From Prevotella sp. UBA4268 (GTDB lineage: Bacteria > Bacteroidota > Bacteroidia > Bacteroidales > Bacteroidaceae), in contig DGWC01000030.1 in the NCBI GenBank assembly GCA_002395135.1, positions 1 through 38,416 on the forward strand: a stretch of 38,416 nt of DNA. The letters are read 5' to 3'. The notes beneath the pieces were generated by a model. It had not been told where the DNA came from, did not search any database, and worked only from the letters and a program-made list of their open reading frames with translations. Shown here one piece after another: positions 3,875 through 34,426 of the stretch. The position numbers and the translations under genes are program-made. Positions within the stretch are counted from its first letter, which is position 1. Each line of letters starts with the position of its first letter.

Positions 3875-4633
3875 TTATAGTGAGATGGTGAGTTCCACGG
3901 GACAGTGGTCGCTTCCGTACACATCGGTGTGTATCTTGGCATCCTCCATTTGTGGGGCAATCCTGTTGGAAACCACGAAGTAGTCGATGCGCCAACCAGC
4001 ATTTTTCTCCCTTGCCTTGAATCGGTAACTCCACCATGAATAGATGTCTTTCTGGTCGGGATAGAAATAGCGGAATGAGTCGGTGAACCCGTTTTCGAGC
4101 AGGACGGTGAACTTCTGCCGCTCCTCATCTGTGAATCCCGCGTTCTTGCGGTTGGTTTTGGGATTCTTCAAGTCTATTTCCTTGTGGGCAACGTTCATAT
4201 CCCCGCATACGATAACAGGCTTCTTTTCGTCCAGTCTTTTCATATACTCGCGGAAATCATCCTCCCATTGCATGCGATAATCAAGTCGCCGTAACCCGTC
4301 TTGTGAGTTTGGTGTATAGACAGTGATGAGATAGAAATTCTCCATCTCAAGTGTAATCATCCTTCCTTCATGATCGTGCACGTCGATACCCATGCCATAG
4401 GTAACGTTGAGCGGCTTATGCTTGGTGAAGATGGCCGTTCCGCTATAGCCTTTCTTGTCAGCATAGTTCCAGTACGACTCATATCCGTCGAAGGCAATGT
4501 CCAACTGCCCCTCCTGCATCTTCGTTTCCTGCAGGCAGAAGAAGTCGGCATCCAGCGTTTTAAATGCCTCGCTGAAATATCCTTTGCCTTCACAGGCTCT
4601 CAGCCCGTTCACATTCCAACTGATAAACTTCAT
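3875..4633 (-). CDS. xth: Exodeoxyribonuclease III (AP endonuclease, ExoA/Xth family)
   Basis: 252 aa, full length for the family. It hydrolyses the backbone 5' of abasic sites and acts as a 3' exonuclease in base excision repair. Endonuclease/exonuclease/phosphatase-fold motifs appear in order: the N-terminal SWNVNGLRA, LQETKM with the metal-binding Glu, YSGTAIFT, VCGDMNVAH, and the C-terminal SDHCPVELTI with the catalytic Asp-His. It has its own promoter at 4657-4687 and is divergent from the repeat element and the gene cluster that follows. Confidence 0.97.
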   Translation of the reverse strand: MKFISWNVNGLRACEGKGYFSEAFKTLDADFFCLQETKMQEGQLDIAFDGYESYWNYADKKGYSGTAIFTKHKPLNVTYGMGIDVHDHEGRMITLEMENFYLITVYTPNSQDGLRRLDYRMQWEDDFREYMKRLDEKKPVIVCGDMNVAHKEIDLKNPKTNRKNAGFTDEERQKFTVLLENGFTDSFRYFYPDQKDIYSWWSYRFKAREKNAGWRIDYFVVSNRIAPQMEDAKIHTDVYGSDHCPVELTISL

Positions 4634-4656
4634 GATTCATTATTCTTTTTCGTCGG

Positions 4657-4687
4657 CAAAGATACGAATAAGCGAGCGAAATACAAA
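4657..4687 (-). promoter_or_regulatory. Promoter of xth (-33 TTTG, -7 TATCTTTG)
   Basis: On the reverse strand TTTG (4687-4684), a 19-bp spacer and TATCTTTG (4664-4657) match the Bacteroidetes consensus. The start codon is 24 bp downstream. Confidence 0.75.
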
Positions 4688-4760
4688 ATAAAACCCATTT
4701 TTTATTTTTATGCCCTCATTAACACCACCACCCGCACCGAGCGGTTCTCGTTCCTAAAAC

Positions 4761-5170
4761 TGTCATGGAAAATCCGAATTTTGGCCTCTCATACGGGCGA
4801 TAATGGTCACGGACGGTCAATTGGGCGTGAAATACGCGAATTACAACACACTTCATGCAACTTGTTGATTAACAAATTGTTATGCCGAAAACGGAGTTCT
4901 CTTGAACGAAAGAATCAGATTTTTACTGAAAAAAGCATAGGTTTTGGGTTGCAAAACCATAGTTTTTGAGGTGCGAAACCATAGTTTTTGGGCTGTAAAA
5001 CCATAGTTTTTGAAGTCTGAAACCATAGTTTTTGAGAGTCGAAATGTGTGCTGTGGTAATGATTCTTTACGTTTTCACGTTTTCAGCGCCCATTTTCTTC
5101 AAAATCCATTTCTATTTTGAAGAAAACCACCAACATGATTTTGTCGCGTTTTTTCGAAACATCAGCATGC
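4761..5170 (+). repeat. 410-bp intergenic repeat element, copy A
   Basis: No credible gene lies here. The stretch aligns along its whole length with the reverse complement of 32882-33291, which is also 410 bp. Both copies start TGTCATGGAAAATCCGA, continue with GGCCTCTCATACG, contain a five-unit palindromic array (4931-5041), then GGTAATGA, CAGCGCCCATTTTC, a hairpin (5093-5126) and TTTTGTCGCGTTTTTTC. The outer parts are the most conserved and the stretch before the array has diverged most. I do not recognise it as a known insertion sequence, and terminal inverted repeats are not obvious. Direction is assigned arbitrarily. Confidence 0.85.
4931..5041 (+). repeat. Five-unit 22-bp-period palindromic array in copy A
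   Basis: There are five units of the type AAAACCATAGTTTTTG plus a 5-7-nt linker; unit lengths are 22, 23, 21, 23 and 22, summing to 111 bp. Each unit is a short palindrome (AAAAC/GTTTT around CATA). Linkers differ between units but match the equivalent linkers of copy B, so the array was duplicated as a whole. Confidence 0.88.
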
Positions 5171-5325
5171 TGTTTGATGGCGAGAAATAGGGTTTTATGG
5201 CATGTTTAGAAAGGCATTGTTATGGAATACCTTATCAATCCTATTCTTTTTTTATACTTTTCTTAAAGACTCCAGTTTCACAAGCCTTGCGAATGCGCAA
5301 CCCCGCAAAAAACATCTTTATTCAC

Positions 5326-8704: not shown

Positions 8705-8753
8705 CCAGGAGCCGTACAGGAGGAAACAGAGTGACCGGATATAGGGGATATAT

Positions 8754-8799
8754 AATAAGAGGAACGGGTGCGACCATCATCGCACCCGTTCCTCTTATT
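8754..8799. terminator. Bidirectional intrinsic terminator, 20-bp perfect stem
   Basis: AATAAGAGGAACGGGTGCGA pairs perfectly with its complement 6 nt later, and T-rich tracts follow on both strands. It separates the convergent 372-aa gene and ribH. Confidence 0.93.
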
Positions 8800-8820
8800 T
8801 TTTATTCTGCTTTTCTTTAC

Positions 8821-23942: not shown

Positions 23943-24037
23943 AAAAAGTAAAACAAGTTGTTTTGGTGCGTGAAACCATAGGTTTTGCACTTCAAAAGCA
24001 TAGGTTTTGAAAGGTAAAACAACTTGTTTTACTTTTT
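23943..24037. repeat. Palindromic repeat array C bounded by a 22-nt perfect inverted repeat
   Basis: The arms at 23943-23964 and 24016-24037 are perfect reverse complements, and each contains a palindrome: AAAACAAGTTGTTTT and AAAACAACTTGTTTT. Between them are two units of the A/B type (AAACCATAGGTTTTG and AAAAGCATAGGTTTTG), keeping a period of about 22 bp. Further single half-units lie at 24040-24095. The flanks do not match elements A and B. The rest of the gap 23739-24239 holds a 7-bp hairpin (23803-23823) and AT-rich DNA with no gene. Confidence 0.85.
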
Positions 24038-24239
24038 GTTCATATAGGTTTTGTATGGCAAGAGTGGTGAATCGGTTTTGCCATAGGTTGCGTTTGGTGG
24101 TGAGTGATGTATGAGATGGTGTCGATACGGGCAGAAAAGAAGTGCAGCAGGGTATAGTCGTGATTGTTAAAAACTGATAAAAACTGGCAGTATTTCTTAA
24201 TTCTTCGTTTCTGTTGATGCTTACTTCATTTTTTATTTG

Positions 24240-24247: not shown

Positions 24248-24264
24248 CATCCGCTTAAAAATAC

Positions 24265-24366
24265 ACGGGTAAGTCCCGTACGGCCAGCTCCCTTCGAATC
24301 CTCCAGGACGGGAACGTAGCAAAGGTAGTTGGTTGTAGCGGCGCGATACGGGTCGCTTGCCCACCC
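24265..24366 (+). ncRNA. ffs: Bacterial small signal recognition particle RNA (4.5S type)
   Basis: A rod-like RNA of about 100 nt. The outer helices GGGTAAG/CTTGCCC and CCCGTA/TACGGG bring together an apical part carrying the SRP-binding signature CCAGGACGGGAACGTAGCAA, which corresponds to CAGG-GGAA-AGCA of helix 8. It scaffolds Ffh for co-translational membrane targeting. The 3' end runs to within two bases of the tRNA-Thr acceptor stem. Confidence 0.88.
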
Positions 24367-24440
24367 GCCTCTTTAGCTCAGTTGGCCAGAGCACGTGATT
24401 TGTAATCTCGGGGTCGTTGGTTCGAATCCGACAAGAGGCT
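24367..24440 (+). tRNA. tRNA-Thr (anticodon TGT)
   Basis: GCCTCTT/AAGAGGC acceptor stem, D arm AGCTCAGTTGGCCAGAGC, anticodon loop TTTGTAA, T arm GTTGG-TTCGAAT-CCGAC, discriminator T; CCA is not encoded. The anticodon stem CGTGA/TCTCG has one U-U pair in the middle. Confidence 0.97.
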
Positions 24441-32881: not shown

Positions 32882-33291
32882 GCATGTCGATGATGGGAAA
32901 AAACGCGACAAAACCATGTCGGCGTTTTTCCTCGAAAAAGAAATGGATTTTGGGGAAAATGGGCGCTGAAAAGACGGAAACGTAAAGATTCATTACCGCG
33001 ACGCACTTTCCGGCGCGCAAAACCTATGCTTTCATGCTTCAAAACCTATGGTTTTACACGCCAAGAACATAGGTTTTACACCTCAAAAACTATGTTTTTG
33101 CAACCCAAAACCTATGCTTTATTCAGCAGACACGCGGTTTTTCAGTTCAAGAAAAATGTGTATTCGTTGTAATCGGTTGTTAGTCAATGTGTTGCGGAAA
33201 CTGCTCCAATACTCGCGTATTTTGCGCCCGACGGATGGTTAGTGACCAGCATCGCGCGTATGAGAGGCCAAAAATCGGATTTTCCATGACA
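32882..33291 (-). repeat. 410-bp intergenic repeat element, copy B (inverted relative to A)
   Basis: Read on the minus strand from 33291 it begins TGTCATGGAAAATCCGA and follows copy A to the end, including the array (33120-33011) and the CAGCGCCCATTTTC block. It is the same length as copy A. It starts 17 bp after the end of the hsd remnant. No gene is visible in it or in 33292-33375. Confidence 0.85.
33011..33120 (-). repeat. Five-unit 22-bp-period palindromic array in copy B
   Basis: On the minus strand there are five units corresponding one to one with those of copy A. Linkers GGTTGC and AGGTGT match linkers one and two of copy A (AGGTGCG there). The third unit carries the loop inverted (CCTATG instead of CATAG). 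Confidence 0.85.
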
Positions 33292-33375
33292 ATCATATGT
33301 AATGGACTCACGTTGGGTTGGTCATTGTTTTATAGGCATCGGGTTAGTTAAACTTTATTATAATATGACGGTTTC

Positions 33376-33928: not shown

Positions 33929-34426
33929 TTATTTCTTGTCCTTGCAGCAGTCTGCCTTCTTCTCAGTTTCGCATTTGCCGCAGCACTCTTTCTTCTCAGT
34001 TTCACACTTGCCGCCGCATTCTTTCTTGGCAGCCTCGCATTTGCCACAGCCTGCTTTTTCTTCACCAGCCTGACACTTGCCGCAGCATCCTTTGTTCTCG
34101 GCATTGTTGCATTTGGCATCGCATTTCTTTTCGCTCTCAGGGGCAGCAGCGGGTTCTGTGGCCTTGTAGCCGAACTTGTTGAATGCCTTCTTGATGTTCT
34201 CGGCCGTGTTCTTGTCGGCATCGTAGGTGATGGTAACGCGCTGCTCCTCGACGTTGGTCTCAATCTTCTTGATGCCCTTTTCGAACTTCAGGTTCTCCTT
34301 GATTTTGTTTTCACAACTTTCGCAGTGCATAACGGGGTTGGTGGTCACTACGAGTGTCTTGATGTCTTTTGCATTTGCTGCAACTGTTGCAAGCACGCAA
34401 AGCATGGTTAAAACTAATTTTTTCAT
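33929..34426 (-). CDS. Exported heavy-metal-associated (HMA) protein with metallothionein-like Cys tail
   Basis: 165 aa. A signal peptide (1-19, ending VAANA) is followed by an HMA domain (about 20-90) with the metal site MHCESC (Cys35, Cys38) and KKAFNKFGYKA at its end. From about residue 99 the protein is a low-complexity Lys/Glu/Cys tail with 14 cysteines in 66 residues, as repeated CCGKC, CGKC and CGGKC blocks. This is a metallothionein-like stretch rarely seen attached to an HMA domain. It lies 107 bp downstream of the TonB receptor on the same strand and probably binds the imported metal, copper or zinc, in the periplasm. Confidence 0.85.
   Translation of the reverse strand: MKKLVLTMLCVLATVAANAKDIKTLVVTTNPVMHCESCENKIKENLKFEKGIKKIETNVEEQRVTITYDADKNTAENIKKAFNKFGYKATEPAAAPESEKKCDAKCNNAENKGCCGKCQAGEEKAGCGKCEAAKKECGGKCETEKKECCGKCETEKKADCCKDKK

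Follow-up and report, generated by a model that had tools for sequence, protein, structure and literature searches.

An old IS982-derived MITE family in Prevotella with decayed ends, a body of nearly constant length and a 22-bp array predicted to be curved

The repeat at 4761-5170 of the window, by which we mean the whole 38,416-nt stretch of DNA that was analyzed, is only the body of a MITE of about 534 bp, and we are highly confident that the family to which it belongs originated as an IS982-derived MITE. MITEs are usually pictured as passengers in which the ends matter and the middle does not. This Prevotella family inverts the usual picture, with ends that rot and a middle that nearly keeps its length, which suggests that the middle has a use. 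By a narrow preference, we read the repeats as an old IS982-derived MITE family whose body may be kept as a fixed-geometry, protein-bound site of bent DNA. Judged by titles, abstract openings, and the nearest papers, we did not find this repeat family described in the open-licence literature.

Copies in the window, the genome and the genus

The first-pass annotation had described a duplicated 410-bp element, and the duplication itself was borne out: 4761-5170 (copy A, L001; + strand) and the reverse complement of 32882-33291 (copy B, L019; - strand) were 77% identical in an alignment of positions 1-410 (E 1.2e-87), with ungapped blocks of 314 nt (78%) and 79 nt (84%). The 410-bp limits did not hold as ends of the element, and the two copies proved to be members of a family of at least 42. 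Copy A, aligned with 39 other copies from the genome, was 86.8% identical to the family consensus without a gap or insertion column. Its body consists of a left segment that starts TGTCATGGAAAATC (4761-4931, from the alignment), an array of five 22-bp units with A- or T-tracts about every 11 bp that is predicted to be curved (4932-5041, from repeat finders and a curvature model), and a conserved right segment (5042-5170, from the alignment), all on the + strand. Body columns 1-14 were 85-100% conserved across 40 copies. Homology to the arm of longer copies begins at -34, marking a left-arm remnant derived from the IS982 3' end at 4727-4760 (+ strand). The five-unit array that had been claimed was recovered by the repeat finders in both copies, at 33011-33120 (- strand) in copy B with limits taken over from the alignment with copy A. 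The setting of copy A was also as annotated, with an Exo_endo_phos (xth-type) gene on the - strand on one side and + strand ORFs on the other.

In its own genome (G000; a draft of 3.15 Mb in 108 contigs, 84.7% complete), the family comprises at least 42 dispersed copies, 41 full-length and 1 partial. Copy A as a query gave 40 near-full-length places (the best 40 of 77 candidates) and one overlapping fragment, and queries with the left 170 bp (best 40 of 44) and the right 131 bp (best 40 of 50) added two more, a full-length copy on contig C47 (104-512) and a partial one on contig C54 (30864-31084) that covers body columns 182-402; a few further low-ranked copies beyond these 42 are possible. 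Mean pairwise identity among 40 copies was 75.7% (67-97%), and only one pair, L024/L031, exceeded 90%. Among the best 15 pairs, those above approximately 0.84 lay nearly all inside a subfamily formed by L024, L026, L031, L033, L037, and L040.

A search of 60 genomes, the own genome included (best 11 or fewer candidates each), found matches in G000, G006, and G017; G006 has a single body (L041, 77%) besides numerous array-only matches, and G017 has arrays only. An exact array pattern was present in 7 of 398 same-genus genomes, G000 among them. One pattern-positive genome (G369) contained one full body (76%), and G192, G063, G203, and G358 contained only arrays among the matches scored (best 40 of 144 in G192 and best 40 of 127 in G063). 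The array module thus recurs without the body in several genomes of the genus, and since the body was found in three genomes only, any function that it has would be dispensable in the genus. Order-wide, the array pattern was found in 1 of 393 genomes, which was G000 itself; a looser order-wide pattern was near-empty and is little informative, as it detected only one array even in G000. A pattern scan of named genomes, which may omit records of the own genome, matched a single contig, JAFUVB010000024.1, which belongs to Prevotella sp. RGIG4852 from the rumen of roe deer. Plasmid, phage, and viral collections gave no matches.

Ends of the element and relation to a resident IS982

The absence of clear terminal inverted repeats (TIRs) had been taken to argue against a simple MITE. 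This argument did not survive, because the repeats sit beyond the limits that had been chosen and are eroded in most copies. Better-kept copies (e.g., L005, L006, L008, L011, L015, L025, and L040) share a left extension of up to 133 bp, and homology continues about 20 bp further right. The best-kept copy, L040, is 534 bp long with perfect 13-bp TIRs (AACGTGAGTTCGA...TCGAACTCACGTT), or 18-bp TIRs if two changes are allowed. By eye, target duplications of 4-5 bp flank L040 (AAATA), L014 (GGAGT), and L025 (AACT); in L006, in which both ends were also placed, the flanks are unalike and show no target duplication by eye, so that three of four copies have one. The L040 site is empty in G006 where it could be followed, with alignment on one flank only.

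A scan for the 13-mer end with at most one mismatch gave 18 sites in G000 against zero in the control. Two of these sites enclose a resident 1026-bp element (C10:261-1286). The protein that it encodes, 298 aa long with the start chosen here, is an IS982-family transposase by NF033520 (E 8.3e-81; 271 bits, the cut-off being 130), with the Pfam domain DDE_Tnp_1_3. The resident copy itself has no clear target duplication. The left ends of L040 and the resident element agree over 22 bases with one mismatch, and their right ends over 18 bases. An alignment of the first 54 bases of L040 was also obtained with the other end of the resident element (score of 53 versus no more than 28 in 30 shuffles). 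Furthermore, the left-arm consensus encodes on its minus strand AGFIVYDLLPKKPSVNIEIIEKSRFIA, which matches the transposase C terminus (residues 272-298) at 74% over 27 aa. By tblastn, this match had an E value of 4.7e-11 for the one consensus and of 1.3e-4 to 3.4e-4 for L008, L006, and L016 singly. Matches in the body were not significant, with E values of 2 or above for the consensus and no better than 0.27 for any single copy; the alignments of L006 and L016 reach slightly past the arm into the left edge of the body. Ends identical in type to those of the resident IS982, together with the transposase homology of the left arm, identify the element as an IS982-derived MITE. It also has the usual attributes of a MITE, being without a functional transposase, within 50-1000 bp in length, and present in many copies. 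The earlier suggestion of a mobile non-coding element is supported by TIRs, by target duplications in three of the four copies with both ends placed, by a resident IS982 that shares these ends, and by an arm homologous to a transposase.

The ends are lost in most copies, copy A included. At two or fewer mismatches, the left TIR was recognized in 6 and the right TIR in 6 of 40 copies, with none for either in the reversed-motif control. Allowing three mismatches gave 11 left (control, 3) and 7 right (control, 0), and allowing four gave 14 left (control, 10) and 9 right (control, 4). Both TIRs were present in 1, 3, or 5 of the 40 copies at up to two, three, or four mismatches, respectively. The left inverted repeat of copy A is unrecognizable, the best left-TIR match having 6 of 13 mismatches, which is not significant. 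Copy B may retain a worn left inverted repeat at 33302-33314 (- strand; at -23, with 3 of 13 mismatches), a weak candidate in that the reversed-motif control also reaches three mismatches in 3 of 40 copies.

Two observations concern arms and ends elsewhere in the family. The left arms of L007, L012, and L028 carry 44-45-bp insertions that by eye are tandem duplications. Two further stretches of G000, C88:1-1874 (L155) and C46:33009-33340 (L166), show by eye the same inverted repeats around pieces of IS982 transposase genes and are possibly MITEs in the making.

Length constraint on the body and predicted curvature of the array

At a moderate gap cost, columns 1-385 of the body in 40 copies contained 2416 substitutions (15.7%) and 10 single-base indels. 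Whole-unit changes occurred in L029 (+22) and in L039 and L040 (-22), and apart from these, 31 of the 40 copies had no body indel. The left arms of 14 copies, hand-picked for a recognizable left arm, contained 304 substitutions (19.5%) and 22 indels, among them deletions of 7, 11, and 12 bp and the 44-45-bp insertions; the bodies belonging to these arms had 822 substitutions and 4 indels (Fisher p 2.3e-9). The contrast kept its direction at the loosest gap cost (body, 45 events to 2347 substitutions; arms, 163 to 636), the arm figure at this setting being inflated in part by unrelated flank. The 41st full-length copy, on C47, has four units and body insertions of 20 bp and 1 bp, bringing the body total to 12 indels in 41 copies. 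The first 40 copies may thus be slightly biased toward indel-free ones, and with C47 counted, the body indel rate is still far under the arm rate. We lowered our estimate of constraint because of the C47 insertions and consider it probable that the body is selected for a fixed length. Five units are present in 37 of the 41 full-length copies.

This constancy is not that of a gene. In keeping with the earlier statement that the stretch holds no credible gene, only one copy in one frame was stop-free among 40 copies read in six frames, and the 40 copies showed no 3-base periodicity. We rejected a protein-coding origin of the body on the closed frames and the absence of periodicity; the significant tblastn match to the transposase was confined to the arm.

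The units of the array mostly read AAA-N-CATAG-K-TTTTG followed by a variable spacer and are near-palindromic (AAAACC-ATA-GGTTTT); variation in their outer pairs (G/G, A/G, and C/T) is often non-complementary by eye. In the family consensus, A- and T-tracts alternate at 0, 10, 21, 32, 44, 53, 66, 75, 87, and 98, approximately one helical turn apart. Under a single wedge model with Bolshoy-type parameters, the predicted curvature of the array was 0.321 versus 0.067 in dinucleotide shuffles, and z was above 2 in every one of the 40 copies. Body columns 1-111 were mildly curved by prediction (0.131 versus 0.047; mean z 3.3), and other tested parts were hardly so. Controls with columns permuted at a period of 22 matched the observed mean curvature in 0.13% of cases. 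Predicted curvature also depended on unit spacing, with a value of 0.32 at 22 bp, a peak of 0.42 at 21 bp, and values of 0.03-0.09 at 16-18 or 24-28 bp. The predicted curvature and the fixed spacing strengthen the possibility, raised from the outset, that this is a DNA-structuring site.

We also analyzed array-only relatives at 50 loci (one of them without an array), which have four to eight units each. Unit chaining admitted only steps of 20-24 or 43-45 bp; among 195 chained steps in all, 190 fell in the 20-24-bp range and 181 were exactly 22 bp. Unit orientation in these relatives often flips once, from minus to plus. In G006, 19 of 19 tested arrays exceeded the best of 16 other windows per locus in predicted curvature. 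In G017, three of five loci have common flanks, which by eye are partly inverted. These loci (L042, L045, and L048) form a repeat of about 200 bp with A/T-rich flanks, in the middle of which lie 22-bp units that include a CCTACGG-type center.

According to the explanation that we narrowly prefer, the resident or a similar IS982 transposase would have scattered the copies, the elements would then have stayed put with their mobility lost, and selection would keep the body as a fixed-geometry DNA-protein site. A putative dimeric or multimeric DNA-binding protein could occupy the near-palindromic units on one helix face, two turns apart, and additional protein contacts may lie in the conserved left and right body segments. 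The outcome would be bent nucleoprotein complexes at intergenic sites dispersed in the genome. That the body serves the host as a protein-bound site of curved DNA is a component of this model that we put forward tentatively. What maintains the body could also act on the pool of transposons instead of on the host. A broader and speculative proposal, which we regard as rather unlikely, is that curved 22-bp-phased arrays at least 25 kb apart are chromosome-organizing (nucleoid or supercoil-domain) sites of one Prevotella species, transposon derived and largely immobile, with the array module recruited separately in sister species as free-standing arrays and as arrays inside other repeats. If the arrays bind protein, they would offer an accessible test system for chromosome organization in Bacteroidota and for the spread of such sites as hitch-hikers on insertion sequences.

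Genomic placement, competing explanations and known repeats

All 40 copies checked are intergenic by simple gene calls, with neighboring genes that are divergent in 13 cases, convergent in 9, tandem in 16, and undetermined in 2. Element orientation had no clear relation to that of the neighboring genes across the 40 copies (tandem cases, 10 '-,-' versus 6 '+,+'). The 11 gaps between copies on the same contig span 25.4-110 kb, nine of them 25-45 kb and none under 25 kb. For the minimum gap, P was 5e-6 given the counts per contig, 3.5e-4 over the whole draft genome with the 79 other contigs assumed equal in size, and 5e-4 without contig C41 (the minimum of which is 28.1 kb). This effect was spotted post hoc in a draft of 108 contigs, with 8 of 40 copies no more than 2.3 kb away from a contig end; the C47 and C54 copies lie on other contigs and leave the result unchanged. 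In G006, judged from positions without simulation, at least nine gaps between array-only relatives measure 7.2-18.5 kb, indicating no mutual avoidance. The array alone thus does not enforce spacing, which is a property of the MITE family and could be caused by target immunity, loss of close pairs, or selection.

Some copies share one flank. L018 (G000 C10:17011-17407) and L041 (G006 C72:9407-9791) have about 226 bp of right flank in common and different left flanks. We dropped an interpretation of this pair as an orthologous insertion because of these differing left flanks and because the genes further out bear no relation to each other. L024 and L031 likewise have only a right flank in common (305 bp). 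These shared right flanks possibly reflect one-ended spread or recombination between copies.

The most serious competing explanation, which we consider plausible without favoring it, is a plain decaying MITE without host function, whose indel-poor body would reflect local mutation bias or past selection at the level of the transposon, for example if the body once aided transposition or replication. The hallmarks of a MITE, the patchy distribution, the 20-bp body insertion in C47, and the right end kept in three of six members of the younger subfamily (L033, L037, and L040; mostly 84-97% identity) all agree with this explanation. MITE movement is held to require only the ends, and simple decay does not readily account for ends that have decayed while the body is kept, nor for the absence of near-identical copies except L024/L031. 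We think it unlikely that the family consists instead of regulatory MITEs that supply promoters, terminators, or insulators to neighboring genes in the manner of BrickBuilt of Porphyromonas gingivalis. The intergenic location of 40 of 40 copies examined is consistent with such a role, as is the report of promoter elements acting in both directions in BrickBuilt segments (PMC4596501), but no clear orientation bias toward genes was seen, and the 385 bp of kept length exceeds the expected need of a promoter.

Less likely still are explanations that take the spacing of at least 25 kb as the main clue and invoke transposition (target) immunity or spaced chromosome-organizing sites. The smallest of the 11 gaps and its P value given contig counts are the argument in their favor, but the array-only relatives of G006 do not keep such distances, and the draft state of the genome, the copies near contig ends, and the post hoc nature of the effect all weaken it. 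The first-pass annotation had also proposed a structured RNA gene family, for which high copy number and conserved length alone would speak and which we rejected as highly improbable. Neither copy A nor copy B had an Rfam match at the gathering score, at which the whole window yielded only the Bacteroidales small SRP RNA and a tRNA, and a permissive Rfam scan of 4600-5300 returned nothing up to an E value of 1. The consensus fold of 39 sequences over 474 columns reached only -6.6 kcal/mol, with a covariation term of -1.9 and two-sided changes in 7 of 44 consensus pairs. Thus, from the first reading as a whole, the mobile element stands, and the RNA family and the argument from absent TIRs fall away.

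Compared with known systems, as portrayed in the consulted parts of the cited reports, the family resembles BrickBuilt, a MITE of P. gingivalis in which a minisatellite lies between a non-repetitive leader and tail and which is always intergenic (PMC4596501). Both have an internal tandem array and intergenic sites and rarely keep both TIRs (4 of 19 in BrickBuilt; PMC4596501). BrickBuilt units are 23 bp long, number 1 to 22.8, and expand or contract, and its GAGACC-type TIR was assigned to IS5 (PMC4596501), whereas the Prevotella family has 22-bp units, mostly five, and ACGTGAGTTCGA-type IS982 ends. The 23-bp unit and GAGACC-type ends that define BrickBuilt were therefore not found in our family. 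Another P. gingivalis element, MITE239, has a left end, ACGTGAGTTCGATATAAAGGAA, whose first 17 bases equal the L040 left end from its second base (PMC4596501, Table 2). This comparison covers the left end, and ISPg3 was placed with IS5 in that report, whereas the resident Prevotella element is IS982 by NCBIfam. MITECca01 of Cardinium is also IS982 derived, present in many copies, mostly intergenic, and accompanied by parental IS982 copies that are intact (PMC9769881). It differs in its length of about 240 bp and its 169 copies, and the consulted part of that report mentions neither a tandem array nor a constrained foreign body.

Within the genus, PINSR of Prevotella intermedia is similarly a high-copy, intergenic, non-coding repeat of one Prevotella lineage (PMC4755523). 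According to the part of that report consulted, it is 188 bp long, about three-quarters of its sites are common to two strains, and it lacks terminal inverted repeats, which the Prevotella MITE family has. The approximately 200-bp repeat of G017 with central 22-bp units is similar in length to PINSR, and a possible kinship of PINSR with the 22-bp arrays is a lead. The palindromic units, spaced groups, and changing orientation of the array-only relatives also recall REP and BIME elements as described in the parts consulted (PMC3733652 and PMC2817692). By eye, no G000 unit has a GTAG/CGTC tag at its ends, and in the G017 variant GTAG lies centrally.

Other repeats were also evident in the window. 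An array-only relative with 22-bp units and inverted flanks, lacking the 410-bp body, was found by the repeat finders at approximately 23951-24038, about 200 bp ahead of the small SRP RNA (24260-24366) and the tRNA (24367-24440). Tandem repeats of 33 bp occupy 33942-34087 in the coding region of a gene for an HMA (heavy-metal-associated) domain protein (- strand, 33929-34426). Finally, a 26-bp inverted repeat at 8748-8805, with arms 92% complementary and a 6-nt loop, lies at the end of an ORF and is perhaps a terminator.
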